Assembly: GCA_008330645.1 (NCBI GenBank)
Contig: VLTN01000065.1
Coordinates: 1 to 64,000, forward strand
DNA from: Cafeteria roenbergensis
Lineage: Eukaryota > Sar > Bigyra > Bicosoecida > Cafeteriaceae
DNA length: 64,000 nt
Direction of reading: 5' to 3'
Part shown: positions 26,901-58,700 of the stretch, in pieces
How the letters are laid out: the number at the start of each line of letters is the position of its first letter
How positions within the stretch are numbered: position 1 is the stretch's first letter
Made by a program: the position numbers and the translations under genes
Notes under the pieces: model-generated
Databases searched by the model: none
What the model was told of the DNA's origin: nothing
The model's input: the letters and a program-made list of their open reading frames with translations, nothing else

Positions 26901-29900
26901 GCTGCTGCTTCGCCGCCGCCTTGGGTCGACTCACTCGGCCCGGGAGCTGCACCCCGTGGTGAGCCGCGCGTCGCTCTGCCTGCTCGAGGTCACGTGCTGC
27001 CCGCAGCTGCCTGTGGACGGCATCATCCAGTTTCGGACCTCGTTCCGGCACCCGGGCATGGGCGTGCTGGTGCACCGGCGGATGGGCCTGCTGCTGGTGT
27101 CAGCGGGCGAGGCGCCGGTCCTGTTCTGCCACGTCCTCGTGGGCCTGGGCCCCCTGCAGGTCCCCGGCAGGGTGGTCTTCGTGCACCCGGAGCAAGGGTG
27201 GGCAGTGGTGCAGGCTGACATCGCAGCCCAGCCGTGGGCGGACCTCGTGGTGGAGGCGGCTGTGAGCCGAACGGGCATGCCCGTGGACGGCGAGCGGGCC
27301 ATGATGGGCTCTGCGGAGTACCGCCCCACGGCAATGGGCGCCATTGCGGCCGCGGGCTTCGCCCGGAGCGTCGTGCAAGTTCTGCCGCTGGGCCTGCTGC
27401 TCGCCACACCCATCGACTGGACGCTGCAGCGGCTGGCCAGGTCGGCGCTGACCCTCAGCGGGGCCACGCCCCTCACCTCCAGCCGCGCCCCCACCAGCTC
27501 CTTCTTCGCCCTGGGGCAGCGCCAGTCGCGCCTCCAGCTGCGTGTGGTGCCGCACATCCGCGGCCCCTTCGCCCGGTCCACGACCAGCATGTCGGTGCCG
27601 TCCTTCCAGTGGGGCTCCTTCAGCGCCCCCCGCGTCGTATCCCTTGAGTCAGTGGCGGGCCCGCAGGGCGTCCTCGACAACCACGCCGCCGGCGCCTACT
27701 TCGACAACAGCGGCAGCCTAGTGGGCCTCTTTCTACCCAACGTCGGCAGCCGCTTCGCGCTCTCCAGCGACCTCTTCGCCGACGCGCTGCACCAGATCAT
27801 CCTCAGAATGGGCGCCGCGCCGCTCCTCCGCCCGCCTTCGGGTGCCCACGGCGGCCCTGCGCTCTCCCCCGAGCACGCAGGCACCATTGGTGGCGGCGGC
27901 GGCGACGACGACAACGACGACGACGGCATCGGCGAGGACGAGGTCAGCGCGCGCGCCCCACTGCACACCCGGGTGCCCGACCTGGAGCTTCGCAGCCTCG
28001 GGGTGGTCCTGGGCATCATGCCAGCCAGGGACGCCCTGGCCATCCTGCGTCTGCCGCGTGACGTCAGGCGCCGCCTGCTCCAGTCGGGCACTGCACGGTC
28101 GACCAACATCGTCAGCGTGACGTCGGCCTCGCGCGACCACGACGGCGCCGCGCCCATCCCGCCCGGGTGCTCCGGCCAAATGATCCCTGGCGAGAGCTGG
28201 GGCCGCCTCCGTGACGGCGACTGCATTCTCGACATCCTCCCCTCCCCCCCGGGTATCGAGGACGTCGACCCTGCCATCGAGTCGTGCTGCCAGGGCGCCA
28301 AGGGGGGCCTGAGCGTGCGCTGGAAGCCCGCTGCCTCGGGCGGCGCCGCCAGGCCGAGCGCCACCGACGTGCTGCTGCCCGTCTGGCTGGCGGAGCGACA
28401 CCACAGCGCGCTCGACAACAGGCACGTCGACGCTAGCACGGCGCAGCTGGCACCTCGACCGGTGCAAGAAGCCGTCCGCCGCTCCGAGCGCCGCCTGCAA
28501 GTCGACGGCGGCGCTGCGCCGCTTCGGCCCGTGTCCGCTGCAACGGCCCTTCGGCTGGCGGGGTTGGACCCCTGCCCCGCCCTTCCCGTGCCGGTGCACA
28601 GCGTCCGAGAGCTCGCCATCCGCGCGCAGCGGGCCCCCTTCCTGCGTCTCAGGATCCTGCGGGAGGGCCGCGTTGCCGTGGTGCGAGTGCCCACGCAGCC
28701 TGTCCTGCCCCGGGGCGCCGACGTGAAGGACGTCCTCGTCTGGTCCGGCCTCGTCCTCCACGACGCAGGCCTGCCCCTGCGGCGCACGGCCCAGCCGCCC
28801 ACCATCGTGCTCCCGGACCCAACGGGGGCCCACCCCCGCGGCGTTCCAGTCCCCTGCCGCCTCGTCATCGCCCGGACAATCCCGGGATCCTCGGCCTCCA
28901 GGCTCGGAGGCACGCCGCTTGCGTGGCTGACGGCCATCGGCGGAAAGCCCACTCCCGACGTCCGCACCGCCGCCCGCATCGTTGCGGCGCTGCCGGACAG
29001 GGAGGCCGTTCGCCTCGACAGCGTCAGCTGCGTGGGGGGCCAGCGGCACACCCACAGCGTCCGCCCCTGCAATTTCACCCACCCCCCGCAGCGCATGGTG
29101 CAGACGGCGCCTCACTTCGAGTGGGTCACGGTGCCCCTCACTGCCGAGGTGGCAGGGTCGGGCAGCCACCCCGCGCCGCTGGGAGAGGCCCGGTCCGCTG
29201 GCCCCAGCGCCGACCGGCTGGAGGCAGCGAGGGCGGCCCAGGCAGCAGTTGACGCCGCGGCGCGCGCGGCGAGCGAGGCGGCGGCACAGGCCAGCGTGGC
29301 CGTGCCCGGCCCGGCGGCCCGACCTGCACCGCAAGCCGGCGGAGACTCTGCTGCCGCGAGCGGCGGTGCAGACGCCTCGGCCGCGGCCGAGGGCGACGCC
29401 GAGGGTGAGGGCAAGGGCGATGGCGAGGTCGCCCCCGCCCTGGTGCGAATGAGCAGCTTGAGCTACGCGCCCTCGCCGACCTCGCACGCCGTGGCCGTGC
29501 GGGCGGGGCCGGGGGGTCTGCCAGCGGCGCGCAGCGGCGTCCGCTCCCTGCGGGAGGTGACCGTCGCGGACGTCGATCCCTCCCGGCAGCGGATCGTGGT
29601 GCTGCCCTGCGGGGGGGGCGGGTACCAGGTCCTGCTGGCCACCGGGCCGACGGCGTCGGCCGTGCACGCCGCGTGTCGCCTGCTGTCCTTGCCGCTGGTG
29701 GCGGTCGCCTCACAGGCGGGAGTTCGAGCGGCGCCTCCTGCCTGGCTGCTGCAGCAGGGCGAGGGGCTGGCGGACACATCGCACCTCTTCAAGGTGCGGC
29801 CCCGCCTCGTCGCGCGCGATGACGGGGCCGACTGGGAGCCAGACGCAGCGCGCGGCGACTGTGCCGACGACGACGCTGCCGCGGCCGCTGACTGGGCCGC

Positions 29901-30255
29901 GGAGGGCGGAACCCTCATGGTGGTGGGCGGCGTCTCCGTGGAGCAGGTCTCCCTGGTCGAGCCGCCGGCCGCGCCTCCCGCCCGCATGCGCAGCAGCGCT
30001 GCGCGTGAGCTTCAGGAGCTGTTCGAGCGTGCCCAGCGGCAGGCCTCTCCGGAGCAGCTGCGGGCAGTGTTCAGCTCCGTGGCGGTGTGCTGCACGGGGG
30101 CTGGAGCGGTGCTTGCCTGGTCGGGGCTGGTCTACGGGGCCTGGCTGCTGTCTGACAAGCACGCCACGACTCGCAGCGCGAAGCTGTGGCTCGTGAACAC
30201 TGCGCGCAGCGCGGCACTGTGGTTTGCGGACGAGGTGCGCGCGCTGACGGGGTGA
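23995..30255 (+). CDS. Nma111-type HtrA/DegP serine protease, double-length
   Basis: Exons are 23995-24246, 24382-24605 and 24765-30255. Both introns start GTGAGC, and the joins rebuild YRDFNTEYISAA. The product has 1988 residues, against about 1000 in yeast Nma111, a nuclear pro-apoptotic protease. The triad is complete: H61 in LTNRHVV, D93 in DPVHDFAFVRFDP, and S177 in SGGSSGSPIVN. The order of blocks after the protease domain follows Nma111: PDZ-like regions, then a second degenerate protease half (near 26950-27790, with GVLVHRRMGLLLVS and DLFADALHQIILRMG), then more PDZ-like sequence. The extra length is Ala/Gly-rich sequence within and between blocks. A hydrophobic segment near the C-terminus (30085-30150) could cross a membrane, which yeast Nma111 lacks. 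Confidence 0.88.
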
Positions 30256-38309: not shown

Positions 38310-40298
38310 CTACGCGACCACACCGGTGATGCGGATGTGGGCGCCGCGATCCACCGGCACCCTTCCGACAACGACTTCGGCGACGGACGCAGCGCCACTG
38401 GCGGCAGGCAGCCCGCTTTCCCCGACAGCGGGGTGAGAGGACCACGCCGATGCGCAGAGCCCCTGGGCCGACGGCGCCTCGGAGGCCTGCCGCTGGGCCG
38501 GCATCGGCGCCGGCGCGGGCTTGTACGGGACCGCTGCGGGTCCGAACACGGGGTGGCTCGACCCTCGCGCCAGCAAGCACGCCGCCGTGGACTCGCCGTC
38601 CCGAACCTCCACAGAGCTCGCCTGGGCGTCGCGCACGATGACGATCACATCGCGCCCAAGCGGCGACACCTGCACGTCCATGGTGGCGCCGCTTCCGTCG
38701 GCGCCCGGCCGGCAAACGTACGAGGCCAGGGCGGAGGGGCCGTCGAACGCGCGCAGCTCGGCCGACACGGCAGAGCCGTCGCAGCGGGGACCGTGCACGA
38801 GAAGGGTGAGCGCGCCGGCAGAGGCCTCGTCCCCGTTGCCAAGGAGGGGCGTTGAGACGTGGAGTGGGAGCAAGGCGCCCCTCCGCCCGAAGGCGGGGAT
38901 GGTGCCCAGCGGAGCCTGCACCACCGTGGTGCGGTTTCCGGGAAAGGTCGCGGTGCGGTCGAAGACGCTGAACCAGCCCGCCGGGTTGGGGGGCAGGGTG
39001 AAGGTGGCGTTGGTGGCGTTGGCCTTGTACACGGGCGACACGAAGTAGTCGGGGCCGAGCATGTAATCGAACGTGGTGTAGTCGTCGGGCTGGATGATGC
39101 CGAAGGGGTCGGCCGGCATGGGCATGATTGGCCGCATGATGGACACGTTGGACTCGAACGCTTGCGCCCCGGTGGTCAGCAGGTACTGCTCCAGCTCGTA
39201 GTGCGCCGCCACCAGCCTGCGGTAGGCGTCCACGTGCAGCGTCGAGCCAGGAGCGTCGAACTTCCAGGGGCGGTGCTCCTTGTCGCCGCCGTTCTCCATC
39301 AGGGAGCAGAAGGCGCCCACGGCGGCCCAGCGCAGCAGCAGCTCGCCCGTGCGACCGAGCTGGCCGTGGCCGGAGCGGTACCCTCCGATGTCCGAGCCGA
39401 AGCCGACGTAGCCGCGCCACGCAGAGTGGAGCATGTTGCCCAGCGCGTCCACGAGCCCCGGGAACGTGGGGTCCTGGTCCCCCACCCACCCTGAGAACAC
39501 GGCGTAGCGAGGGCTGAACTCGAGGTAGGCTGACACACCGTCGAAGAGGTTGAAGCTGTCGACGGGTCGCGACATGATGAGGGCTTCGGGGTTGCGCTCC
39601 CGGCTGTAGTTGAAGAAGGACCCGTAGTAGGCGTCCGCGTAGTCGCGGTAGGTCACCACGCCCTCGTGGTACGGGCTCTGCGGGAAAATGTACTCGGCAA
39701 TGAACGGGTCGGTGCCGTCCGTCTTGAAGCCGTCCACACCAATGTCCAGGACGAGGTCCAGCTGCGAGTTCCACCAGGCCGTGGCCTCGGGGTTGAAGTA
39801 GTCGAGCAGGATGCCGTGCCCGTGCCACCACTTGATGGGGTCGGGCGTGGACTCGTTGAGGCCGTTTCGCACGAAATAGCCCTTGGCCGCGGCCTCGGCG
39901 TAGTTTGGCGAGTCCGTATCGATCATCGAGGTCGCCCAAAGGATCACGCGGACAGACTTGGCGTGCATCTGGTCGACCAGCCCCTTCATGTCCGGGAACT
40001 TGGTCGTGTCCACGACGAAATTGTTCACGCCGGTCGACCACATGCTGTCGATGTCAACCGCCCCCACGGTGATGTTGTGCGCCGCGTACTCCTCCACGTA
40101 GGCCGTCACGTTGGCTTGGTTGGACTGGTCAGAGCTGAGCCACACCCAGTGGTGGTGCGCCCAGGGGGCGTACGGGGCGGCCGCGAGGCTCGACGGGCTG
40201 CGGAACGCGGAGCGGCCGGCTGGCGCCGCGGCAGCGGTGGCCCACGCGGCCGCAAACGCCGCTCCGGCCGCAGCCAGAACGACTGAGAGCGACCTCAT
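38310..40298 (-). CDS. secreted glycoside hydrolase family 31 enzyme
   Basis: 662 residues from the ATG at 40298. The first 27 form a signal peptide (MRSLSVVLAAAGAAFAAAWA then Ala-rich). GH31 blocks follow: HHWVWLSSDQSN, VGAVDIDSMWSTGVNNF, FPDMKGLVDQMHAKSVRVILW, and the nucleophile region IGVDGFKTDGTDPF with the likely catalytic Asp in KTD. SGWVGDQDPTF carries the likely acid/base Asp, then YVGFGSDIGGYRSG and LLLRWAAVGAFCSLMENG. Members hydrolyse alpha-glucosides, alpha-xylosides or sulfoquinovosides. The substrate here is not clear, and the missing GH31 N-terminal domain (short for the family, about 650 rather than 800-950) suggests a compact subgroup. Asn-Ala-Thr glycosylation sites are present. 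Convergent with the SOUL gene, 209 bp apart. Confidence 0.9.
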   Translation of the reverse strand: MRSLSVVLAAAGAAFAAAWATAAAAPAGRSAFRSPSSLAAAPYAPWAHHHWVWLSSDQSNQANVTAYVEEYAAHNITVGAVDIDSMWSTGVNNFVVDTTKFPDMKGLVDQMHAKSVRVILWATSMIDTDSPNYAEAAAKGYFVRNGLNESTPDPIKWWHGHGILLDYFNPEATAWWNSQLDLVLDIGVDGFKTDGTDPFIAEYIFPQSPYHEGVVTYRDYADAYYGSFFNYSRERNPEALIMSRPVDSFNLFDGVSAYLEFSPRYAVFSGWVGDQDPTFPGLVDALGNMLHSAWRGYVGFGSDIGGYRSGHGQLGRTGELLLRWAAVGAFCSLMENGGDKEHRPWKFDAPGSTLHVDAYRRLVAAHYELEQYLLTTGAQAFESNVSIMRPIMPMPADPFGIIQPDDYTTFDYMLGPDYFVSPVYKANATNATFTLPPNPAGWFSVFDRTATFPGNRTTVVQAPLGTIPAFGRRGALLPLHVSTPLLGNGDEASAGALTLLVHGPRCDGSAVSAELRAFDGPSALASYVCRPGADGSGATMDVQVSPLGRDVIVIVRDAQASSVEVRDGESTAACLLARGSSHPVFGPAAVPYKPAPAPMPAQRQASEAPSAQGLCASAWSSHPAVGESGLPAASGAASVAEVVVGRVPVDRGAHIRITGVVA

Positions 40299-40722
40299 TC
40301 TCGGGGGCACGCTCACTTGTGGGGAGCGAGTGCGCAGCGGGCGCGCGGGGCTCAAGGTTCAAGGTTCAAGCAGAGCTCCACGAGCCTTGCTCGCGCCACG
40401 TCTTGAGCGAGTGCAACATCGGCCTCAAGCCGCCCCAGCCGCCCCAGCCGCGGCGGCGGAGGCGGCGGCAGTCCCCGCCGCACCGTCGCGGTCGCGTGCG
40501 AGCGGGCTCTGCGTGCAGGCTCTTTGACTGCGCCGCGGGGCGCTCGTTGCGGCCCGAGCTGGTTCACACAGCAATCGGTGTGCCAATCGCAATCGCAGCA
40601 GATACTTGCGACCTCCACGCGCTGCAAAGAGCAGCGGGGCTAGCGTTCCACGCGGCACTCGAGCGCGAGCGCACGCGTTTCGGATCCAGTCGATATCGAG
40701 GGACGCGGATCCAGTCAATACA
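40299..40722. other. intergenic, no gene seen
   Basis: 424 bp upstream of the GH31 start. A short direct repeat (aaggttcaaggttcaagc) lies near 40350-40370. Nothing else was recognised; the GH31 promoter should be here. Confidence 0.45.
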
Positions 40723-41745
40723 TCAAAAGTGGCATTCGTCGTCTAGCTTGAACGAAACTCTCTTTCCAGCCTTGCGCGCGAAACTCGAGGGCGCTTCGCT
40801 CCCGCCTCCGAGCGGGCTGTCGACGGGACCGGCGACCCCCGATCCCCACGGGTCGGGCTCGTCGCTGGAGCCATGCTCCCCGAATTCATGTCGCAGCGGC
40901 GGCCGGGCCTCTCCTGTCCTGTTCCGAGGGCCCGGCACGCGCCGCACCATCCCACGCAGCGATGGCGGCCCTCCGCTGGACCTGCGCCGCAGTCGGGGAG
41001 TGGTGGGCCAGCTTGCGCGCGCTGGTGCCGCGAGGCGGTCCGTCGGCGGGGACCCGGGCCCGGAGTGTGCCATCGTAGCCATGGAACGTGGCGGTGGTGA
41101 CTGCGCGCACGTCGCGGCCGCGTGGGCCCTCTCCAGAAGCTGCGCGCTCTCAGTCAGGCGCAAGGGCCGCATGCTCGGCACCGAAACCGGAGATAACTGC
41201 AGCGGGGCCGGCTCGTCCTTGACCCGCGCTCGCCATGGCGAGGCCACCGCGGGCGTTTCTGAAGGGGCAGCGCCGGCTGGCGGCAACAGCGACGACGGCA
41301 CGGGCTGTTGCCTGGCCGAGAGCGCGCCCTTCCTGGCGCCAGAGTGTTGCGGCGCCCGAGCCACGGGCGGGATGCGCCTCAAGCTTGGCGGGAGGCCGCG
41401 GCGCCCGAGAGCGGAGCGGCGCCGCGCTGGCTGGTGAAGCGAAAGGCTCCGCTGCAGGCCGCCGGCCAGTTTGCCGGTTGGGGCGCGCCCCGCGCCGGCC
41501 TCGTGCAGCACAGGCGGTGAGGACATCCTTGAGGCAAGCCGGGCCGGTCCTGCCTGCTCGGTTGAGGGACGCTGGCTCGCCGCGAGTGCGGTCACGTGCG
41601 ACGTTGCAGTGGTGTTTTCAACGATCCCGTCATCGCCTCGGCCTGCCCGCAACCGAGGACTCGCTTTTTCTCGCCGCGGCCTCGGCGGCCTCCAGCTTGC
41701 CACGCGCTGCAAGCTGCCACCGCTCGCCTCCGCGGTCCTCGCCAT
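40723..41745 (-). CDS. uncertain ORF ending in an RVxF-like motif
   Basis: A minus-strand frame, 340 residues from its first ATG (41745), with the frame open further to 41949 without an ATG. Arg/Ser/Pro-rich and disordered, no domain. It ends GKRVSFKLDDECHF; KRVSF fits the RVxF docking motif for protein phosphatase 1, and RSLSLHQP and similar Arg-x-x-Ser sites occur. It lies downstream of the STRA6-like gene on the same strand, so it could be a separate gene or a tail exon of that gene. No GTGAG donor was found near the end of the STRA6-like frame to support joining. The coding status is doubtful. Confidence 0.3.
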   Translation of the reverse strand: MARTAEASGGSLQRVASWRPPRPRREKASPRLRAGRGDDGIVENTTATSHVTALAASQRPSTEQAGPARLASRMSSPPVLHEAGAGRAPTGKLAGGLQRSLSLHQPARRRSALGRRGLPPSLRRIPPVARAPQHSGARKGALSARQQPVPSSLLPPAGAAPSETPAVASPWRARVKDEPAPLQLSPVSVPSMRPLRLTESAQLLERAHAAATCAQSPPPRSMATMAHSGPGSPPTDRLAAPARASWPTTPRLRRRSSGGPPSLRGMVRRVPGPRNRTGEARPPLRHEFGEHGSSDEPDPWGSGVAGPVDSPLGGGSEAPSSFARKAGKRVSFKLDDECHF

Positions 41746-42094
41746 GCTTTGCCGCCCGCGCTGCCGGCCCGGCACCCGCAGAGGCAAGCTGCCAGGAGCT
41801 GTGTGCAAGACGTGCCGGACCAAAAGCGCTTTCCACGAATTGTGCGCGGCGCAGCTCTGCCAGCACGCGATCACCAGCGCACGCCCGCGCGGCCAGCCAG
41901 AACCGCCCCTGGGCAGCGGGGGCGAAGAGGGCCCCGCCCTGTGGGGCAACAGTGGCGGCGGATCCGCGGCACGCGGCGTGGCCGCGTGCCGCGTCGCCGA
42001 ACAGCGAGCGAGCAGCCTGCGTGCTGCATGTGATGTTCATTTTCACGCACGGTTCGCCGGGCCAAGCCGTCGCGCAAGTTGCACGCGAGCAAGG

Positions 42095-44911
42095 TCACTG
42101 ACTGGGATGGGCGGCGCCTTGCGAAGCAGCGGCGCGGCGCGTGTGCGCGGTGCTCGACGGCAGCTGCGACGGGCCAGCAGCTGCAGCCAAGCCGGCGCAC
42201 GCGCCGCGGAGCGGGCCAGAATCGACCCTCGAGGCCCTGAGCGACCAGTCCTTGCGCCAGCGCCGCACTCCGGGGTTCCGAAGCAGCGTGAGCGCAAGCG
42301 CCCAGCGGAACCTGGCCTGCCGCCGTCGCCGCAGCGCGCGCCTCGCCTCCGCCCGCTCCAACTCGCCGCCGGCTCCAGGCGCCCGCCCAGGACCAGGGGG
42401 GTGATAGCAGCGACAGGCGTGCCATGCCGACGAGGCACCCCCTCGCTTCCACCCAGGGGGGCTTTCGGTGCTCCACACGTCAGGGCGTCTGGTCCAGGCA
42501 GATGCGCAGGGCTGGGCTGGCGGCGCAGGTGTTTCTGGGCTCGCAGGGGAAGCGTGCAGCGCCACAGTGTCGTTGCCCACAGGTGTGCCTTGCGTGCTGG
42601 CCAGAGCGGCTGCTGCGGACCCAACGAGCGGCGATGGCTCCGAGCTGACCCGTGTCGGGAAGGCTTTTTCTTCCGCCCTGCGCGCGTCCAGCAGGATGGC
42701 GGGGCAAACGTCCTCGCAAAACACTCGCAGCACGGGGTTGTTGTGCCTGTGCTCGGCCAGCAGGGCGCTGATGAACGGCGCATGCACGCTGTCGAACGAA
42801 GAGAGAGTGGGAAACAGCTGCATGTCGGGACGAACCGACACCAGGAGCGCCGTCCCGATTCCAAGCAGCATCCGCGTGGTGGCCACAATGGGCCCCGAGA
42901 ACCCGTTGATGCCGATCGAGGCGAGCTCGTAGAGGGCAAAGCACCGCGGGCGGGACAGCCGCGTTCCTTCCTCGAAGAACGGCCGCACCACGCAGTACCG
43001 CAGGACCAGGTCCACGGCCACGAGAATGAGCGACGTCACCATGGCTGGAAGGGCGCGAACGAGCAGCAGCATGGTCGGCTGCCACGTGACAACAAAGACG
43101 AGCAGCGTGAGCACTGCGCTCAGCAGAATGGAGCTGAACAGAGCATTGTACACCGATGTGGTGACGAGGAGCACGGACAAGTCGTTCACATACCAGCCGG
43201 AGGGAACGTGGAGCTCGCGGAAGCCCTGGGAGGATGCACTGGACGTGGAGAACCTTCCCGGGACGACCCCGACGCCCGTGCTCAAGGCCCCTGCCTCGGT
43301 CAGCTTCGCCGCAAGCACGCGGAACTCGAGCATCTCCTGTCCAGTGGCGGCCCCGACCCCCCTGCCCTGCCTCAGCGCCGCAAGCATCCGCCTGAAGCGG
43401 GGGAGCACGTTGGCCCAGTGCAGGAGCAGGCTCACCAGGACGACAGACGTGGAAAAGTCGTATGCAGCGCGGAGGGCGTCCGCAGCCACGTCGACCGAGG
43501 AAAAGACTGCGTCGAGCCCCCCACCAGGTGCGGAAGCGCTGTTGATCTGGTCGACCAGGCGCTGCGTGTCTTGCAGCACTGCGCACCCACAGTGGATTGC
43601 GTACATTCCAGGCGGGGCCCCGGGGTCGGCCTCCGGGACGCAGCTGCTCATGTTGAGCGGCTGGGGGTCGCCAAGCGTCGACGGGTTCCGGAGCGACGGG
43701 TCCGCGATCACGGCACGGACTGCCTGCGTGGCGTTGGCGCACACCTGCGCCGAAGCACTGGCAGGCCCGCCGACGGCTTCCGCAACGATTGCCGCGTTGT
43801 CAAGAGCGACTGTCAAGGTCTGCTGCACGACCGAGAGCTCTGCTGAGATGCGCTTGAGGCCAGCCACGAGATAGTCGCCCGACTCGCGAAAGACCACGAA
43901 TGCGACGATTGTTGAGAGGATCCCCGCGAAGACGCAAGCTAGCACGCGTTGCGGAAATCGAAAGCCCGCCGGCTGCGAATGGTCAAACTGCCGGAAGACC
44001 TCCGCCCCTGCCCTCCAGCAGCATCCAGCGATGCCACGGGCTGGGACGCAACGTGAATCACTGCGGGGCTTGCCCCAGGTGGCGCTGGTGGCGGATGGCG
44101 CGACGCACCGGCTGCTCGACACTCCAGCCTGCCCTGTTGCCCTGTGCGTCGCCGTGGCGGTCGCAACGGGGACGTCGCCGGCCTGTGCAATCGGGCTTGC
44201 GCTCAGGAGGCCGGCGTGCCCGGGCCGGCCGCGCAGCAGGGCCGCGACGTGGAGCCGGCAGCCCTTGGAGAAGTCCACCTCTGCCTGCCACGGCTGCCGG
44301 CTCCAGCACAGCAGCTCGACCATGTCCCAGGCCGCAATCAGAACGGCCGCGGACATGACTGTCGCGGCGGAGTACAGAGCCGTGAGCGTGGCGGCGCTTC
44401 GCCTGCTCGTGTCCAGCGCCCCGAGCAAGGTCGCAAAGACGGCAAGCGCGGCGCCAGCCAGAGCGAAGCCAATCGCACGCGCCGCAGGCGACTGGTAGGC
44501 GGACGTCGCGGTCAATACCCCCAGCGCGCACACCGCGTAGCACGCAATCGAAGCTTCGTACCAAAATGGCGAGGCTGCCTCCGTCCCGTCCCCGGCAGGC
44601 TGCTGCTCCCCGCCGGCGGCGCCGCCGCCGCCGCTCTGCAGCAACCGTGCGGCCACTGGCGCAGAAGTTGTGGCGTTGGGCTGCGCCCTCTGCGTCTCTA
44701 TGTCAGCCCCAAGCGTGCCAAAGTACACGCTGGCGAGCAGGCCGCACAGGACCGGGAAGGCCAGGCGAGACGAAGCCCGGTCTGCCACCAGGTCCACGAG
44801 CTGCGGCAGCGCACTGTCAATGCGGCCCAGAATCGAGCTGCAAGAGCAGCTCGCGCGGCAGCCTGGCATCTGAGCGACTGCAGGCGAGGGGGCGCGCGAT
44901 CCCTGGGCCAT
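42095..44911 (-). CDS. STRA6-like retinol-uptake receptor homologue
   Basis: 938 residues, many membrane segments. STRA6 in animals binds retinol-binding protein and moves retinol across the plasma membrane. The first in-frame ATG is at 44911. N-terminal segments lie in FPVLCGLLASVYFG and through the region 44560-44310; a central cluster is near 43460-42870. The C-terminal cytosolic part carries the family ending: SVRPDMQLFPTLSSFDSVHAP, then LLAEHRHNNPVLRVFCED, and after a variable linker RWALALTLLRNPGVRRWRK (42320-42260). From memory, human STRA6 has the parallel blocks LSLLPPRAATLDPGY, HPAMTAFC and RWGLAYTLLHNP. An extracellular insertion of about 180 residues with Cys (43860-43500) is unusual. 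Ligand cannot be inferred; a protist may transport another lipophile. Confidence 0.82.
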   Translation of the reverse strand: MAQGSRAPSPAVAQMPGCRASCSCSSILGRIDSALPQLVDLVADRASSRLAFPVLCGLLASVYFGTLGADIETQRAQPNATTSAPVAARLLQSGGGGAAGGEQQPAGDGTEAASPFWYEASIACYAVCALGVLTATSAYQSPAARAIGFALAGAALAVFATLLGALDTSRRSAATLTALYSAATVMSAAVLIAAWDMVELLCWSRQPWQAEVDFSKGCRLHVAALLRGRPGHAGLLSASPIAQAGDVPVATATATHRATGQAGVSSSRCVAPSATSATWGKPRSDSRCVPARGIAGCCWRAGAEVFRQFDHSQPAGFRFPQRVLACVFAGILSTIVAFVVFRESGDYLVAGLKRISAELSVVQQTLTVALDNAAIVAEAVGGPASASAQVCANATQAVRAVIADPSLRNPSTLGDPQPLNMSSCVPEADPGAPPGMYAIHCGCAVLQDTQRLVDQINSASAPGGGLDAVFSSVDVAADALRAAYDFSTSVVLVSLLLHWANVLPRFRRMLAALRQGRGVGAATGQEMLEFRVLAAKLTEAGALSTGVGVVPGRFSTSSASSQGFRELHVPSGWYVNDLSVLLVTTSVYNALFSSILLSAVLTLLVFVVTWQPTMLLLVRALPAMVTSLILVAVDLVLRYCVVRPFFEEGTRLSRPRCFALYELASIGINGFSGPIVATTRMLLGIGTALLVSVRPDMQLFPTLSSFDSVHAPFISALLAEHRHNNPVLRVFCEDVCPAILLDARRAEEKAFPTRVSSEPSPLVGSAAAALASTQGTPVGNDTVALHASPASPETPAPPAQPCASAWTRRPDVWSTESPPGWKRGGASSAWHACRCYHPPGPGRAPGAGGELERAEARRALRRRRQARFRWALALTLLRNPGVRRWRKDWSLRASRVDSGPLRGACAGLAAAAGPSQLPSSTAHTRRAAASQGAAHPSQ

Positions 44912-45226
44912 GCTGCCGCCGGGGGGCTTGCACGGGGTGCGCGCTCGCTCGCTCGCTCGCAAGCACGAGGAGTGCGCTTGGGCCAGATGTTGGTGACGCG
45001 CAAACTTTCATTGATTGGCCGGCAGCGTGTCGCCTCGGCTTCACTGCGCCAATCAGCTCTCGGGAGCCTGCTTCAGCGGGCTGACGCACCAACGCACGGC
45101 ACGCAGGCTGCGACACACAGACACACAATTTCACACGCACATCCGCGCGCTCGCGGAGCGGGTCAACGAGGCGCCCTCCCCTTGCGCCACTTTGAGGCTG
45201 CCGACCTCGGAGCCACGCCCAGCCAG
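44912..45226. other. intergenic, no gene seen
   Basis: 315 bp between the stop of the giant EGF protein and the start of the STRA6-like gene, both minus strand. A gctcgctcgctcgc run lies at 44943-44960. Nothing else was recognised. Confidence 0.45.
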
Positions 45227-48200
45227 TCACGCCAAGGCCGTCATTCGCGAGCAAGACGCCCCCTCAAACCCGGCAAAGCACTGGCACCTGCCAAATTGTC
45301 TATCGCACTGTCCCCGGCCGGAGCACTCGATCGCCTCGAATCGCGTGTGCGGCGGGCGGAAGAGCGAGGCGGCGCTGGCCACCGCACTGATGCGAAAGAC
45401 GTAGAGGCCGGGGTCGGGATGCAAGGAGCTGAACCGGAGGAGGATTCCGTTGCCGACGGGCACGACGAGCGGGCGCATGCCGGGACCAGGGGCGGATGCA
45501 AGGTCCGAGTCCGCGGACAGCGTGCCCGTTGGCCCCGTCTCCTCATCAAGCGCCGAAGATGGCGACCTGGTGGAGACCCTGTAGGTGCTGTACGGCGAAC
45601 CTGTCTCAACATGAACCATTAGCGTTGTGTCGAACGCCACCGTTGGCGAGCTGGGCTGCGAGAGCGGACGAAACGCCGTCGCTGCATCGACGGAAACGTG
45701 CCCCGGCGTCCCAGTCGTTCCCGAGGTGTCTATCGCAAGCATCTGGCGAACCCTGGGGACGCATCCGGCCTCACCGCAGCCAAGCGGGAGGCTTGCGATG
45801 GAAACCCTGTCTCCGCTATTGCTCGGGGACGTGAGAGTCACAAGCCACGCCCGGTCCCGCTGGCCAGCCGCCACTCGACGAACGCTGGCGGACGGCACCA
45901 GCTGGTCGGGCAGTCCCACAAGCGCTCTGCGGATCGCTTCCGACGTCTCAGGCCCGGTGCCGGCCCAAAGTGCCGAAACAGGAGTCGTGACAAAGGTCCC
46001 GAGCTCTTTGTCCGTCACGCGGAATGCGATCTCGTCGTGCTCGATCGGAACCGCAGCGCCCTCTGTCCACAGCGTCAGGCGAATCTCCCAGACGGCACCG
46101 TGCAGCTCTGGCCGGCAGGGGACCTCTCCGTCGCCGCAGTGAGTTACGGGGTCGTCACCGAGCGGGCAGCCGCGAAGCGAGCAGTCCGGGCCTTGGTAGC
46201 CCGGATCGCACCGACACACGGTCAGCCGTGGGGCCTGAAATTCGCGACGGAATCGGTGCAGCTCGTCCGCTTCACCAGGACTGGCGCCGGGAGCGACTCC
46301 GCCGTCGCTACTCGGAGCGGGGAGGAGCGCCATGGGCACACATGTTCCTTGGGCGGAGCACCCCCGCGGGCAGTTCAGGCGCTGACAGGCAGCGCCTTCG
46401 AACCCGTCAAAGCAATGGCACTTCCCGGAGTCTCTATTGCACACCCCCTGGGCCGAGCATTCTGCCCACTCCAGAAGTGGGACGGTGGCGTCCCCGTTTG
46501 GCCAGGCCTGACTCTTTGGGCAAGTTCGCAGGCTGCAGTCTCGTCCAGTCCAACCCTGGAAGCAGTTGCACGCCCCGTGTGCCAGACACTCGCCGTTGCC
46601 GCTGCAGAGTGCGGGGCAGCCACCCCCGGCGTGCCTGGATACGAGGGGAGGCCGGATCAAGGGTGCGAACGGGACGATGGCGGGCACGGCAAGCGAAAAG
46701 TGGTCGACCAAGCACTGCACGAATCCGCCCTCCCCGGCAGAGTACGCGCACGATCTGGCAGGAGCCGGCGGGCCGTAGGCTCCTGGGCCGTCGGTTTCGC
46801 CCTGAGCGTGTCCAAGCTCACTGGCAAGCAAGATCACTGCAGAGGTGTCGGGTGGCAGCTGGCCAATGTACAGTCGCAGCGCCAGAGGTGGGTCGAACGT
46901 TGCGCCCGCAGGGCCCAGGAGCACGGCGGCATCAACAAGCACATTTGCCGCCTTGCTGTCTGAGGCTTCAAAGCTCCGGAGCGCCGAAGCAGCAGCGAAA
47001 CCACCCCTGACTCTGATACTCGTGATCTCGCCTCCGCCGCTCCCTTGCAAAGCAGTGACGCCAGCTGCAGCGGTGAGCTCCACTGCACCCGCCCCCTCGG
47101 GGTCGCCTCCTGGAGCCGGGAGCCGCACTCGAACGCGTTCTCCTCCCGCGGAGGCTGGCGACAAGGGAATGTCGGGAAACACGCAGACGGGCCGGGGAAG
47201 CGACGCAAACGGGTTGTAGTTCCCGTGCGGGTGCGAGACGGCGTGCCAGGCGGCAGACGGCACGGTACACCCCGCGACCTCCACTTCGATCGACACGTAG
47301 GCGATCGCTACGCTGTTGGCTCGGTCACGAGCAATGACACGAAGCTGCAGAGTGCTGGCACGGGGCGATTGGGGCGAAGGCGATTGAAGCCGGAGCGGCG
47401 GCCCGTAGAGCGGGGTGCCGGAGAAGACCAGCTCGCCCCGGAACGGCAGCTTGCTCGGCGACACGACGCTCAGAGTGTAGTTGAACAAGTTGGCGGACAG
47501 TTCGTCGAGCGACTCGTATGCCGAAATCGCCGGGTTCAGCCAGGACACCTCGTAGCCAAGCGAGTCCATGCCTGGCTGCCCATCGGCCTGATCTGCCAGG
47601 TCGCGGTCTTGAAAAATATCCTGGACCGGAAGCCGAACTGTCGAGAACTCGCCGTGCACCATGCGGCGCTGGGCCACGGACATGATGTCGTTTGGAGCCG
47701 CCAACAGCAACGGCTGCTCCTGCACGTCGAGCACTTCAACGATGAGCGAGGCCGTGGCGTGCGCGCCACTGAGTGCATCAGCCCGAACGGTGAGCACGGC
47801 AGGGTTGGGCAGTGCCTCGTCTTCGTAGTCCAAGGGCTGCCGCCGATCGGACGGGCCGACAGCGATGCGGAGAACAGACGGGTCTGGCAGCACGAACCTG
47901 GTCTCCGGGCTGATTCCGCTCGGAACGAGGGAAAACGCCACTGGGTCCCCAGCTGCAAGCATCGCGGCTGCGTTTGAAAAATTGCCCAAATCGGCGAGGA
48001 CATAGTCGCCGGGGCTGGCTGTCTCGTTGACAGAGAGTGTCGCAATCTGGCTCGTAAACTCTGGGCGAAGCAGGGGCACGGAAGGGACGCAAACGCGGCG
48101 CCCCGGAACGGCGGTGAAGCCTTCAGAGCAGTCCACATGGCATGCCTGGCTGTCCGGGCGAAGCAGCATCCCCTTCGGGCAGGCAAGCTCGCACGTTCCG

Positions 48201-51200
48201 TTTGCCAGGTTCGGCGCGAATCCGAACTCGCAGCTGCTCACGCAGTCCGCCGTCGTTGCCAAGTCGAACGAGGCCACCTTGCCTCGCAGAAACATGCCTT
48301 CTCCGCAGCGGTGAGCGCACGCGCGCGCCACAAAGTCCGCCCGGAGGTGCGGCGGACACGTTGCCGAGCACGTCCTGGTGGCGGGCGTGAAAAACCATGC
48401 ATCGCCGCACACATGCCGGCACGTCCTGGTGATCTCGTCCGGAACCGTGCCCTCCGGGCACCGGACCGTGCACAATAGAGTGCTGTTCGCAGCAGGCGGC
48501 AAGTACGTTCCGGGTCCGCAGAGGGGCGCGCAGGTCCGAACGCCATCCTCCCGAGCCCGCTGGCCCGGCGGGCATGCAGACGCGGCGACGCAGCTTGCAG
48601 CCGAGCTGGGGTCGACGGTGCGCCCCAGGGGCAGCACAGTCCCTGCTCGGCAAAGCTGCGCACACGCACGGGTGTGGCTGTCAGCGATTTGACCCCGCGG
48701 ACAGGCTTCGGCGGCCGGCAAGCACGAACTGGCCTCGGCGGCAGCGCCAAGTGGCAGCGCCTCGTGCTCTCGGCAGACCGGATCGCACACGCGGCTGGTG
48801 CTGTTCGCGCGAGTGCCCCGCGGGCATGACGTCACGCACGCAGCGGCGGCTCCTGGGTGGCGGAGATAGGTCCCCGCCGCGGCCGGGCACCGAAACTCGC
48901 ACGTCCGTGTCGTCGCGTTGTGAACCAGCCCAGCGGGGCACGGGAGCCGGTGGCAGTCGCCAAGCCCCGCCTCAGCAGCCTCGTGGCCGTCGTCCGGCAG
49001 CAGTGCGAAGCCAGGCGGGCATGCGAGGTCACATGTGCCGGAGCTAATGTTGCCCACAACTCCCCAAGGTTCAGCTTCTCGGCAGGACTCGACACACCTT
49101 CCAGAATCTTTCCCCGTCAGGAGCGGGAGGAATGTCCCATTCGAACAAGCTGGGGTGCATGCCCTCAGCTGCGGGTGCGCCGAAAGGCCTCGCGGGCAAA
49201 ACGCCTGGCATGCTCCGCCGCTGGCGCTTTCGAGGAACACACTTCCCGGAGGGCATATTGCTTCGCACGCCTTGGTCCAGTTGCCCGGCACAGTGCCGGC
49301 TTTGCAGACTTCGGCGCACCCTGCTGGCAGGGTGGGACTTGCCAGCCCACCGCGGGCTACCTCCCAAGGCACTGAAGACGGCGCGTCTGCTTGAAGAAAC
49401 GTGCCCTCCGCGGGACAGGTAGGGGAGCACAGCCTGCCTGCGGCATCGGCGTACGTCCCCCACGGGCACCAGTCAACGCAGCGGCTGGAGTTGCCGCTTG
49501 TGAGGAGCAGGTGGCCCTCGACGGGGCACAACACGGGCAAGCACGACCGATGGGGGCTCCAAGGTGCCTGGCCTGGCGGACAAGCGTCCGCACAGACGAG
49601 GTCCATGGTTGTATTCTGGCCCAGCTCGTCGACCTCCAGCGAGTCCCAGCTGGCTCCGACTTCGAGGGACGCGCTGGCGTTGGAGGAGCTGTTTTGGTGC
49701 CAAGAGCCGCCGCCAGTTTCATTCGTACCTCTTGAGCTGTTGCTGCTGGCGGGAAACGGCAGCAAGGCTCCATGCGGGCACACGTAGCCGCAGGTATGGG
49801 CGGCGTGGTCCGGCACCAAGCCGAACGGGCACGCGCTGACGCACTGCCGCCAGGATCCACTCGCACCTGCCGTTTCAGGCAGCAAATATGTCCCGTTTGT
49901 GCACACAGGCTGGCACTCCCGCGTGGTTTCGTTGACCTCGTAGCCGAAGGGGCACCCGACGTCGCACCCTCCTCGGATGCCCGCTACAGCTCCGCCAGGC
50001 TGCAGAGCTTCGCCCGGGCCGCAGATGGGTGAGCACACGCGGCGCCTGGAGTCGCTGCGGAGACCCATTGAAACCTCCGAGCAGTTGGAGGTGCACTCGA
50101 AGTCCGACGGGTCGAAGGCGGTGCTGCCAGGCACCAGGAAGCTGGCGTTCGCGCAGGCATGCACGCAGACGCCCTGGAGGTCGATGAATCCAAAGGGACA
50201 TGGCGCTGGCGTGCAGGAGGCCACTTGGGCCGAAGCGAATGGGGGAAGCCTGAGGGAGAGCTCCACTGCTTCTGGTGTGCCTCTGCACACAGAGCGACAG
50301 GCTCTGGTGGCCCCGTCCTCAACGAATCCGGGGAGCGACGCGCAGTCTGTTCTGCAGAAACCTGCGAACGGGTCCGCAAACGTGCCTGCGGGGCATGTCG
50401 GGGTGCACGTGCCGTTTCGGGTCTCTGCGCGGGTGCCGGGAGGGCAAATCGCGACGCAGGCAGCTGCCGAGGTGTCCGGAGCGCCCGGCGGCAAAAACGT
50501 CCCGGCTTTGCAAACCAGCTCGCAAGCTCCGGTTGTGGAGTTCCCAAAGAACCCCCGACCGTCTGCACCTTCGGCCTCGCAGGCCGGGACGCAGATTTCC
50601 GATGCATTTGCCGTCGCGTCTGCGCGACCAAGCAGGTACTTGCCCTGCTCCTGGCAAACTCGGGAGCAAGAACGTGTGGCAGCGTCGGGAACGCTGCCCC
50701 TGGGGCACGCGGGGACGCAGATGAGGGGGTCGTTCGCATTCCAAGGCGCCCAGGGTGGCAAGAACGTGCCCTCGCGGCACACCGGCTGGCATGACTGCGT
50801 CGCCATGTCTGGAGCCAGTCCCCGCGCAGCCTCGGCGCACGTGGGCACGCAGGCCGCTTCCGCCACCAGAGGCGGGGCGACGAAAAAGCGACCCGGCTCC
50901 TGGCACGCAAGCCGACAGGTGCGGGTGTCGTTGTCGCGCACAAGCCCTGGGAGGGAGCTGCAATCGGAGACGCAGCTTGACAGCTGTGGCGGCGTGGCAA
51001 CCCCAAAGGAGTCGATGACGGGGAAGAAGCTGCCATCCCAGCAAAGAGGCTCGCACGTCCGACCAAGATCCGAGCGAACGGTGCCGACAGGGCAGGACAG
51101 GACGCACGAGGCTGCAGGGTTTGCGGCGGCCTCGTCCGGGTCAGCGCCCGGCACAAGAAGCAACGGTTCTGGGCAGGCTGGCTCGCATCTTGAGGGGCTG

Positions 51201-53583
51201 GTCTTCCCAACGAGGCCGTGCTGTGTATCGCCGCAGCTTGCGACGCAGTCCGAGGCGTTCGCCGGGTCCGGCCAGCGAAGAAACAGCCCGAGGGCGCAGC
51301 TGGCTGGCAGGCACGCCTGGAAGTCTGCAGCCACCTGGCCTGCTGGACAAGCTCCGGGCACGCAGCTCCAGGGGTCCGGCGACGACAAGGCCGACGCGGG
51401 CAGTCGCTGGCCTGGCGAGCACACTGGATCGCACCCTCCGGTGACGTCGTTGCCCACAGTCCCAATGTCGGAGCACGAGTCGACACAGCCCGAGTCATTG
51501 CGCGAGAGGAACCTTCCAGGTTCGCACTGGCGGACGCACACCGTTCCCGACGCGCGGCTCGGTGCAACGGAACCGTGCGGGCAGGTCGCGAGGCAGTCGT
51601 GGCCGGCTGGCGAAGGCTTGGGAATGCCCAAGGGCAGATATTGGCCCGGCGGCAAACAAGCTTGGACGCATGCGCCGGACCGGGAGTCTTCCGTGAACCC
51701 ATAGCCAACAGCAGAGCTGCAAGAGTCAACGCAGACCGGCGCCGCCGACCCAGCCTGATTTAGCTGCGTTGCATTGCATCGCAGGTGCGCTGCGCCGTCA
51801 GTTGACAGGTTGACCAGAAGAGTGACGTTCGGGTCCAGCCGCGCAGCCGCCGCCGCTCCGTAGCACTCCAACGTCGGCGCCGGAGAGCCGTGGTGCTCCA
51901 GGCTGCAGTTTTGCAGCACATCTTCAGCTGCAATCGAGGCGTTGCCATCCACGCCCATCGCACCCTCGGAAGTCACGTTGCAGACAAAGCGAAGCCCGGG
52001 GGCGGCGGAGCTCTCCTGGGCACAAACTAGAAGTGCACCCTCTTGGCAGCTGGGCGGTGGGGCTTCGAACAGATCCGCGCCGCAGGCGCGAATGCAGGCG
52101 TGCCTTTCAGCGACTGGACGAGTGCCCAACGGGCAGGAAGCCTCGCACCCGGGAGGGAGAGGCCCAATCCCAGGGGACCAGAGCGTGCCGGCTGGGCACC
52201 GGGGCCTGCAGGTGCCAGAGAGGACGTCGGACCAGAACCCCACCTCGTGCTCCTCGCAGCTGGTCACGCACTGGCCTCCAGCGCCGCCCAAGCCAGCAAG
52301 CCAAAAGGACCCCGGCTCGCAGAGCACTTCCTCTTCTTGCAGCAGCCTCCTCGCGTCTCCCGCCTTCACACCCTGTAGCTCCTCCCGCTTTGCCGGAGCT
52401 GGGCCAGCAGCGCCAGCCAGGGTCACCAGCGCCGAACGCCCAGCCTCGTCCAGCTCGTCCAGCCACTGCGCTTTCCATTCAACAAGCCATTTGCCGAAGT
52501 TGGATCGGGTTGGCTGCAGCTGGGCTGCACGCGGCACCTCAGGCAAGGCTGCTCCTGGGTCTCGGCCAAAGGGCAAGAGCTCCGGCTGCAAGCCGAAGTG
52601 GCGCCACAGCGCTTGTAGCGCGCTCGCAGCGGACCTTGCAACCGCCCGCCCAGGCCTATCTCGAAATCTCATCAGTTCGCGCTCGAGCTCTGGCCGACAG
52701 GCCACGAGCGCAAGAACGTCGCCTGGCGCCGGCGGCCCTGACACGCCCTGCGGAACACGGCATGTTCCTGCCCAAAACGTCGGAAGCCTGTCGTGTGCGT
52801 TGGCATCAAGGGCGTCGGCGGGCGCCCCGCAAATAGATTCCCCATTGGGTGCGACCCCCGCAACGAAAGCAAAGTCGGCGTCTGCGACTCCCGACTCCTC
52901 TTCGTCGGTCAGGCCCGTGCAGCCTCCAAGTCGAAACTCGCCGCTCGAAGTTGGAGAGCAGACTTGTGGCAGTTCCACCAGCTCCGCAGGCAGCGCGACC
53001 TCGGTTCGCTTGACGCGACAAGACGGAACGATGGCTGCGTGCTTGCATGCACCGTCAAATAGGGCTGCGAACGGGTGCGCAGGGCCGAATCGCCATTCCC
53101 CGCCTGCGTCGCAGCGTCCGGGCACCGAAATTCGAGCCTGGGCCGGCGGCCGTCCGACCAAGCCAAACGCCCGCGACATCACTCGAGCGGCCTCCGCCAC
53201 TGCGGCGAAAGCCAGACGGTCAGCCACTCCGGCAGAGTCTGCGATGGAATCATCAACGGGGAGCGGGTCCTCGGGTCGTTGCGCACAAAAACCTGTGGTT
53301 CTCCCCAGCTTCCCACCCCCTCCCCCGCCTTGACCGAGTCTGCTGGCCCGGGCATTCATCCGGCGGGCGAGCAAGTCGATGGCAAGGCGCACGGCTTTCG
53401 AGCTGGAGGCCGCTCTTTCGCTGGCCCGGCCCGCAGCAGCGGCGCTCACTCACCAGAGGGCGCCGCGAGGACCTTCAGTCGCAGGGGCTGGCTTTGCTCC
53501 TGGGCATGCCCCGCCTTGCGGGAGCTCTGGACAGTGCGTGCCAGCACACACACAAGGAGGGAAAGCAGCACGACGAGCCGCAT
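45227..53583 (-). CDS. giant secreted cysteine-rich / cadherin-like / EGF-module protein
   Basis: Exon 1 (53583-53454) encodes a signal peptide (MRLVVLLSLLVCVLARTVQS). A 161-bp GTGAGT intron leads to exon 2 (53292-45227), total 2731 residues. Order: N-terminal region of about 330 residues with a few Cys; roughly thirty Cys-rich repeats (about 370-1770) of the form C-x-P-x-C...G-x-F/Y-L-P...C-V-x-x-C-P-x-G, like ephrin-receptor/GCC2-GCC3 modules; one cadherin-like repeat near 48070-47690 (LDYEDEALPNPAVLTV, then VEVLDVQEQP) and a second beta-rich domain (47480-47280); then EGF modules (46620-46200) with CSGNGECLAHGACNCF and FDGFEGAACQRLNC, a beta domain, and a last EGF (ECSGRGQCDRQFGRCQCF). No membrane anchor is seen, so probably an extracellular matrix or cell-surface component. 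Confidence 0.88.
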
Positions 53584-55746: not shown

Positions 55747-58700
55747 TCAGTGGCCGCCGGCGCCGTTTCCCGCGCGGAGCCCGCGGCTGATGTGCGCCAC
55801 GTGATCAACGATGATGGCTGCCACGCCATGCTCCTGCTGGAGCTTGACGCATTCGATCTCGTTGTTGCGCTTGCCGAACGTGGCGAGAACGAGTCCTGCT
55901 CCGCGAACGGCGTCCATGAGCACCGGCGCCTCCAGCAGCGGCTTGCTGTGGCTCACGATGCCGAAGAGGCCGACAGACCGCGCGAAGCGGATGGCCTCGC
56001 GAAGGCTGTTGCGGCGCGGGTCCGCGTCGACCTGGGTGCCGGCGTCCGTGAGCAGCAGCACGGGGTAGGTGCCCTGCTTGCGGTGGAGCAGCAGGCACAC
56101 GTCCGGGTCAAACGACGAGAAGATGACGCCGCGGGATCCGGCGTTGGCGAAGGTGCAGTCGAGCACGCGGTCGACGTAGGTGTTGCGGTCCGGAACGATG
56201 AGGCGGCCCTCGGCCACCTCGGCGGGGGACGGGTACTTCATCTCGATGTTGAAGCCGCAGCTGACGGGCACGCGCTGGAAGGTCTCGGCGAGGGAGGTGA
56301 GCTTGTCGCGCAGGCCGTAGTAGAGGGAGCTGCGGTTGCGGTGGCGAACGGGGTCCAGGCCCATCGCCTTGAGCGTGCGCTCGCTGGTGTGGCCCGAGGC
56401 ATGCGGCGCAGGGGGCGCCGTGCGGTCGGCGGCCTGAAGGTCCGGCGAGGACGACGCGCCGACGAGGGCGGGGCGAGGGGCCGGGGCCGGGGCGCCCGTT
56501 GAGGAGGCGTCGGACGCGGCGGTGAGCGGGGAGCTCGGGCGCCCGACCATGGCGGGGGTGGCCGCCGGGGACGCCGCGCCCGTCACCGCGCCGGCGCCGG
56601 CGCTGCTGCCGTTGCTGAGGCGGGAGCGGTGGCGAGGGCGGGCGAGGAAGTCGTGGTCGGTGAGCGGGGCGACGCGGTTGAGCTGGTCGGCGGTCATGTG
56701 CGACACCGGCACGCGGATGCCTCCGGGGAGCCGCACGCCAAAGTCGTGGTAGACGACGGGCACGCCGTCGGACGACAGCTGCACGTCGAACTCGACGTAC
56801 TCGGCCCCGAGGGAGGCCGCCGTGACGAAGGACAAGACGGTGTTCTCCATCACGTGGGTGCGCCAGCGGCGGGTGCCGGCCGGGCCAAGCACCTCCGCGG
56901 CGTTGTCCGCCCCGGCGCCGCGGTGGCCGACGACCCGGGTCTGGCGCCAGTAGGCGCGGACCGCGTTGCCGGTCATCGCCGAGGGCACGGCGCCGAGGGG
57001 CGGCGTGTACGGCCGCGCGAGCACGAACCGCACCGTGACGGTGCCCATCACCGCGCCGCCTGCCGCCAGCAGGGGCGCGCTGGCCTCGCCCTCGAGCCGC
57101 AGGCCGCAGGAGGAGTCCCAGCAGTGCTGCGCAAGCACCGCATGGGCCTCCCGGATGCCCTGGGCGCCCGGCCGGTCGGCGGGAGGGGGCGGCAGGCCGT
57201 CGCACAGCAGCGCGATGGCTCTGCCGACGTCAACCGGACGCATACCCTCGATGACGTCATCGGGCACGCGGGGCGCGGCTCCGCCCGTGCCGAGCAGCAG
57301 GGCGGGCGGGAAGACGGCCCGGCCCACCACCACGCCGACGCCCGAGGAGACGCTGACCGCGAGGCCGAGCCCGAAGGGGCCTCGGCCCCTGGAGGAGAAG
57401 GTGTGCGACGTGTTGAGCTCCGGGTCGTCGGCGGGCAGCGCCGTCTCCCAGGTGGCGGGGGCGCCGTCGGCGGCCTCCTCGGCCGCGGCCGCGTCGGAGG
57501 CGGTGCGGTGGTGGCCGCGGGCCGCGCGAGCACCCGCCGCGCGGCGGGCCGTGAACCGCGCCGGCGATCTCTCGCTGGCGCCGGCGCCAGCGCCTTCGGC
57601 CCTGCCGCCGTCCGGGCTTGGGAAGCCCGGGGCGCCCGCCGCCCGCGTGCCGGCGCCCGGGGAGTCGGACTGAAGGGCCAGCGGCGGGGGCGTCCAGGGC
57701 TCGTCGGCCGCCTTGAGCGCGGCGTCCCAGCCGGACCCACGGCGCCGCGTGCGGGCAGCCGCGCCGCCCGAGGAGGACTCGCTTCTGCCGCGGCGGGCCC
57801 CCGCCAGCGGGCTGAGCACGGGGCTGGGAAGGGTCTCCGCGTGGTCGGCGCCCTCGGCCCGGCCGTGGGCCTTGCCGTCGTCGTCGATGTCCAGGCCGGC
57901 TTCGTCCTCGCTGAGGTCGCTGTTGCCGGTGTCGCTGGGGGCGTCGATCGGGTGGGTGGCGAGCTCGGCGGCCGCTGACGAGGCCGAGGCCTCGGCTGCC
58001 AGGGCCTCGTCGTCGTCGCTGTCGGCGGCCGCTGACGCCCTCAGGCCAGCGGCGCGGAGCAGGCGAGGGCCGTGGCGGCGCCGGAGCGGGAGCGTCACCA
58101 TGACGGTCTCCCCAGCTGCGGTTTCGAGGGCCTCCGGGTCGAGGTCGACGTCGGCCGGGGCTGCCTGCGCCGACGCGCTCGAGAGCCCCCCTGCCGCCGC
58201 GGCAACCGCAGCCCTGTGCTGGGCGGCGCGCTCCAGGCCGACGGACCAGGGTGCGAGCTCCAGGCGCATCCGCCGGGACGGAAGCCGCTGCCCAGGCGGC
58301 GGCTGCAGGCTGACCGCGGGGCGGGGGCGTTGGGTGCCCTTTGGCCCGTCGCCCGCGCCGCCGAGCATGACGTGGAGCTCCCACTCGTCGCTCTGCATCA
58401 CGGGGTGTCCCTCCTCCACGCGCTCGGCGGCGGCGCTGGCGTCGCTGGCTCCGCCCTCGGAGCCGGCCGTGGCTGCGTGCGTCGCCGCCTGCGCGGCGGC
58501 GTTGGGCTCGTCCCCGCTGCTCGGCTCCGCGTCCCCGCTGCCGGAGCTCGCCGGCGGCGGCGAGGCCCTGGATGCGCCCGCGTGGCCCGACGCCGCCCGG
58601 CGGCTGGCCGTCACGCCGGACCGGCTGAAGCGGATGGGCTCGTCCTCCTCGTCGTCGTAGCCGCCCACGCTTCGAACGCTCTTGGGCGCGCGGGCGGCGG

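Follow-up and report, generated by a model that had tools for sequence, protein, structure and literature searches.

A predicted STRA6-family membrane protein that may help the protist Cafeteria roenbergensis take up vitamin A from its food

We describe a gene in a 64,000-nucleotide stretch of the genome of the bicosoecid Cafeteria roenbergensis (contig VLTN01000065.1; the whole stretch is referred to as the window). Judged from its sequence, the 938-residue product is a genuine, divergent member of the STRA6 family outside animals. The STRA6 system has retinol-binding protein (RBP) as a partner; other animal members of the same Pfam family are RBPR2/STRA6-like proteins. The protein described here may help in the uptake of vitamin A from food. 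Tentatively, and with confidence somewhat short of even, we favour the reading that it is an RBP-independent, calcium/calmodulin-regulated transporter of lipophiles, the likeliest cargo being retinoid from prey for the cell's own rhodopsins.

A preliminary description of this DNA had proposed a STRA6-type homologue, and the Pfam profiles bear this out. RBP_receptor (PF14752) was the sole family matched by the 938-residue protein at E up to 10, with 32.2 bits against a curated cut-off of 25 (E 6.3e-8). The LMBR1/LIMR lipocalin receptors and SLC44 are multi-pass membrane proteins too, but neither they nor any other transporter family gave a Pfam match at E up to 10, and SLC44 or another transporter family was rejected as an identity. 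Residues 586-755 by themselves still scored 28.5 bits. This match was lost in all nine window-wise local shuffles of the segment, which kept its hydropathy profile; two of the nine had weak matches elsewhere in Pfam (E 0.011 and 7.4), neither reaching the cut-off of the family concerned. Additionally, a 94-residue C-terminal piece matched RBP_receptor only (16.9 bits, E 0.0028, under the cut-off), at profile positions 574-604 of 605. The full-length match occupies positions 397-550, and the two matches, obtained from separate pieces, are therefore collinear. A two-sequence profile, built from human STRA6 and the zebrafish protein of 5SY1, the only STRA6 sequence found in the PDB, weakly hit the same two places with 0.2 and 6.5 bits (E-values over two sequences only). 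There, hhalign gave probabilities of 8.0% and 2.6% (P 0.0043 and 0.018), the first pairing residues 666-733 with zebrafish 497-565 in 5SY1 numbering. No PDB chain was matched by the protein up to E 10, and NCBIfam gave no match for it or for its paralogue.

The clearest likeness to STRA6 lies in two C-terminal blocks. NPVLRVFC stands at residues 725-732 and RWALALTLLRNP at residues 869-880, both beyond the last hydrophobic segment. We scanned the protein without gaps for 11 segments of zebrafish and human STRA6, whose limits were picked after viewing the alignment, and compared each score with 200 local shuffles. The juxtamembrane segment found its best place at residues 710-734 and the C-terminal-helix segment at 864-887; for each, none of the 200 shuffles was as good. 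The earlier claim that the blocks follow STRA6 in order, past the membrane region, thus holds, and a resemblance through hydrophobicity alone is disfavoured both here and by the profile shuffles above. Residues 864-887 are identical to zebrafish STRA6 at 10 of 24 positions and to the human sequence at 12 of 23, and a motif search based on RWALALTLLRNP found one occurrence in the six frames of the window. In STRA6 the C-terminal helix is the second calmodulin-binding site (BP2), and its counterpart here is putatively calmodulin-binding as well. Calmodulin itself is present in the genome and close to the human protein (98% over residues 2-46 and 90% over 45-145).

The genome, of which 36,303,456 bases in 167 contigs were searched in six frames and exon by exon for protein families, holds a divergent second copy on another contig (C8). 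This is a 1116-residue open frame, of which 985 residues were used as the protein. It matched the same region of RBP_receptor with 26.2 bits in the genome search and 27.6 bits as a C-terminal piece; as a whole protein it scored 23.7 bits, just under the PF14752 cut-off. The paralogue was reached via the Pfam model only: a search of the genome with the 938-residue protein returned itself alone at E up to 1, and identity between the two is 31% in the best-matching segment. The paralogue, too, has two long loops, with hydrophobic segments on either side of them and between them. Six short peptides from each protein, a search that reaches close relatives only, found no relative of either in viral contigs, and those of the 938-residue protein found none in prokaryote genomes.

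Membrane segments were placed from hydropathy (cut-off 1.6) together with the helices of a low-confidence structure model, and sides were assigned with both ends in the cytosol (Table 1). The outcome is about eight hydrophobic helices, counting the sub-cut-off one at residues 485-505, and one candidate intramembrane helix; the first transmembrane (TM) helix of STRA6, TM1, has no counterpart. Each STRA6 protomer, according to a passage of PMC12225734, contains nine TM helices in addition to an intramembrane one. The layout here would correspond to STRA6 TM2 to TM9 without TM1, with the N-glycosylation sequons at residues 79, 393 and 420 and four cysteines outside. A cysteine-containing extracellular insertion had been noticed beforehand, and a loop of this kind, with two of the sequons, does lie between two helices. 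It measures 139 residues, whereas the outer loop between the TM6 and TM7 segments of zebrafish STRA6 has about 36, making it about fourfold longer. Since passages of PMC8595884 and PMC3546623 put the RBP-binding region of STRA6 between TM6 and TM7, the loop would occupy the position of that region. Overall, the protein shares with zebrafish (5SY1) and human STRA6 the C-terminal membrane segments, the juxtamembrane block and the basic C-terminal helix, in the same order, but differs in the missing TM1, the longer outer loop and linker, and an N-terminal half unrecognisable by sequence. Homology to STRA6 is, on these alignments, demonstrable only from about residue 596 onward.

Table 1. The STRA6-like gene and the segments of its product (nucleotide positions in the window; residue numbers in the 938-residue protein)
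Feature	Position	Strand	Remarks
STRA6-family protein	42098..44911	-	938 aa, single open frame from ATG; Pfam RBP_receptor match
Four hydrophobic helices, residues ~50-69, 116-138, 142-168, 174-203	44303..44764	-	assigned to STRA6 TM2-TM5 from their order
Long, presumably cytosolic loop, residues 204-317	43961..44302	-	side from predicted topology
Hydrophobic helix, residues 319-345	43877..43957	-	put at STRA6 TM6 by order only
Expanded outer loop, residues 346-484	43460..43876	-	Cys 391, 424, 441, 443; sequons N393, N420
Candidate TM7 helix, residues 485-505	43397..43459	-	under 1.6 hydropathy cut-off; within model helix 465-514
TM8-like helix, residues 578-612, and intramembrane-helix-like segment, residues 613-646	42974..43180	-	hydropathy; partly in Pfam match
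TM9-like helix, residues 657-693	42833..42943	-	over hydropathy cut-off only at 675-693; in Pfam match
RBP_receptor-matching segment, residues 596-749: final membrane segments with the juxtamembrane block	42665..43126	-	profile 397-550
Juxtamembrane block ending in NPVLRVFC, residues 694-733	42713..42832	-	710-734 outscores 200/200 local shuffles
Basic C-terminal helix with RWALALTLLRNP, residues 850-892	42236..42364	-	STRA6 C-terminal helix counterpart; weak own Pfam match

What such a protein might be for is suggested by the rest of the genome. Six places exceeded the cut-off for Bac_rhodopsin, some of them possibly exons of one gene. Two translated loci read ...DLVSKN... and ...DLFAKN..., in which the helix-G lysine was taken by eye as the retinal site. 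Three Cafeteria channelrhodopsin homologues produced photocurrents in HEK293 cells, according to a passage of PMC8406140, and a fourth rhodopsin, from strain BVI, is described in part of PMC9765531 as giving currents typical of intramolecular proton transfer. On contig C35, at about 326.4 kb, a rhodopsin exon lies beside a frame that by eye looks like a histidine-kinase region, possibly a rhodopsin-kinase fusion; on contig C2, at about 741 kb, a channelrhodopsin-like frame is followed by some 500 residues without a Pfam match at E 0.01 and continues past the end of the locus.

A route for making retinal was sought in the same genome. No RPE65-type oxygenase (PF03055) was found there, with 2 of 14 control genomes positive, although a divergent enzyme could escape this exon-by-exon search. 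PF00494 matched at two places. One is a squalene synthase (TIGR01559, 380.6 bits against a cut-off of 286.75) and the other falls under every equivalog cut-off, and for this reason phytoene synthase counts as not found; the second place is presumably an NDUFAF6-type protein. A NUDIX domain lies in the same open frame as the squalene synthase (contig C18, about 148.4-149.3 kb); its likeness to isopentenyl-diphosphate isomerase, at 94 bits, falls short of the cut-off of 105.8. The single place for PF05834 (27.2 against a cut-off of 23.4) covers positions 1-45 of the 380 in the profile, and the same stretch is shared with ten further families, most of which bind FAD or NAD, so that no credible lycopene cyclase was found; we assume that this is the start of a squalene monooxygenase. 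One place exceeded the cut-off for the LRAT domain, which is a broad one. As rhodopsins are present and a retinal-making route went undetected, a lipophile importer of STRA6-family descent would have an obvious possible job. Retinal scavenging has reportedly been seen in a choanoflagellate (as cited in PMC9418006). For heterotrophic relatives among the marine stramenopiles (MAST), a dietary supply of retinal is proposed in a passage of PMC8163842. The preliminary description had expected no RBP in a protist, and the genome agrees: no recognisable lipocalin (PF00061) that could act as an RBP partner was detected in it (2 of 14 controls positive; a very divergent one could escape). In keeping with a heterotroph, no light-harvesting protein was detected either (1 of 14 controls positive).

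Put together, the protein would sit in the plasma membrane or the phagosome membrane, with some eight membrane helices, a putative calmodulin-binding C-terminal helix and a large cysteine-containing outer loop. Lipophilic small molecules would be exchanged between a donor outside the cell or phagosome membrane and that membrane or the cytosol, and this exchange may be under the control of calcium and calmodulin. The most likely cargo would be retinoid from bacterial prey, acquired without RBP, and once imported it could serve as the chromophore of the cell's own rhodopsins.

Several results weigh against this reading. The first 560 residues gave no RBP_receptor match, either by Pfam in pieces or by hhalign, and the gapless matches of TM2-TM8 were not significant at their expected places. 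Zebrafish TM6 was expected near residue 313 but scored best at 586, with only 2 of 200 shuffles as good, and the best places of TM2, TM4, TM5 and TM7 were also elsewhere than expected. The intramembrane segment, TM9 and TM3 did fall best where expected, yet 38, 97 and 76 of 200 shuffles, respectively, were as good; TM8 came near its expected place, but its score was reached by 179. The spacing of the two conserved blocks, which the preliminary description had also likened to that of STRA6, did not stand: the linker between them has 129 residues (735-863) against 37 in the zebrafish protein (567-603). An intron was considered as the cause of the long linker, but the search gave a single weak 69-base candidate in frame, which is unconvincing. 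At E 0.001, Foldseek found nothing similar to either of two predicted models, nor was 5SY1 among the matches listed; both models, the single-sequence one (predicted local distance difference test score, pLDDT, 42.0) and the two-sequence one of residues 561-760 (pLDDT 46.1), are too poor to judge the fold. The motif of the C-terminal helix was not found in 8.1 kb at the paralogue locus. Blh (PF15461) had no match in the genome, but no control genome was positive either. Finally, in a passage of PMC8163842, RPE65, detected in MAST species, is given as an alternative source of retinal.

The alternatives to a prey-retinoid importer are partly compatible with one another. The protein may belong to the STRA6 family and carry another lipophile from digested bacteria, such as a sterol, hopanoid, quinone or tocopherol, with retinoid use being an animal specialisation. 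The recognisable portion is indeed the C-terminal part with its helix and not the RBP-binding loop, no lipocalin was found, and two divergent paralogues may imply more than one cargo. Against this, rhodopsins without a detected retinal route make retinoid import a plausible need, and the presence of squalene synthase makes a need for sterol less obvious. We consider this unlikely, albeit a serious contender. Improbable in our view is that the protein is a calmodulin-coupled surface receptor or signalling protein, whose cysteine-containing loop senses an outer ligand, and not a transporter. Such a role would suit the large loop with its four cysteines and two sequons as well as the C-terminal helix, the strongest point of conservation, and PMC12953553 and PMC5549806 describe STRA6 as a signalling receptor, too; however, no signalling domain was matched in Pfam, and STRA6 itself moves retinol in both directions (in a passage of PMC8595884).

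Two further alternatives touch the homology itself. If only the C-terminal part were homologous, a STRA6-like module would stand behind an unrelated membrane domain, through fusion or convergence. The missing N-terminal signal by Pfam, hhalign and gapless matching is what one would expect in that case, but the order of the helices and the sides of the sequons and cysteines would agree with TM2-TM9 of STRA6 if both ends are in the cytosol, and the segments of the paralogue are distributed around two long loops in the same manner; we deem such a composite decidedly improbable. That the match is a chance product of a hydrophobic, guanine-plus-cytosine (GC) rich frame, or animal contamination, appears very improbable indeed. 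High GC does leave many long frames open here. Nonetheless, not one of the nine shuffles matched, the two collinear hits came from separate pieces, and GC at the third codon position is 0.72-0.87 in 17 of the 18 overlapping 100-codon stretches of the frame, while the contigs concerned are 189 kb and 750 kb long and the paralogue is only distantly similar. The remaining one, residues 751-850, has 0.67 and lies in the linker, where the coding signal is weak.

Food uptake apart, another question regards the age of the family. STRA6 is called animal-specific in part of PMC5977736, and a passage of a review holds that it seemingly evolved 'from scratch' as the RBP/STRA6 system emerged (PMC3546623). 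For the rotifer Adineta vaga, an excerpt of PMC12220480 annotates a STRA6-like protein with PF14752. Among the papers listed from the open-licence literature of PubMed Central (PMC) we found no published protist STRA6, although protist protein databases may well list members. A bicosoecid member would extend the family well beyond animals, and the family's old core would then presumably be the C-terminal helix of the calmodulin type rather than RBP binding. It is possible, if rather doubtful, that the family predates both animals and RBP, that it acts in this bacterivorous stramenopile as a calcium/calmodulin-gated importer of prey retinoid, and that RBP binding was a later addition to the outer loop in animals. 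Such an importer would be a candidate answer to how heterotrophic protists with rhodopsins and without known retinal synthesis obtain their retinal.

As to the locus, the gene occupies a minus-strand stop-to-stop frame of 970 codons (42095-45007) in a window with a GC content of 67-78% (4-kb bins). Rfam had no match in the window, and no tandem repeats were found at 40000-46000. The ATG lies about 315 bases from where the next frame on the same strand ends, which leaves little space for an upstream exon with TM1. That neighbour (45227-53449, minus strand, 2740 residues) is rich in cysteine repeats, matches teneurin-type EGF and EGF_2 near its C-terminus, and is probably a large surface protein. 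Further away, a 1881-residue frame at 24610-30255 (plus strand) contains by eye a serine-protease-like stretch, without a Pfam match at E 0.001. A 1721-residue frame at 55750-60912 (minus strand) carries ankyrin repeats and a C-terminal glycerophosphodiester phosphodiesterase domain, and a glycoside hydrolase family 31 protein (PF01055, E 1.7e-40) lies at 38310-40358 on the minus strand.

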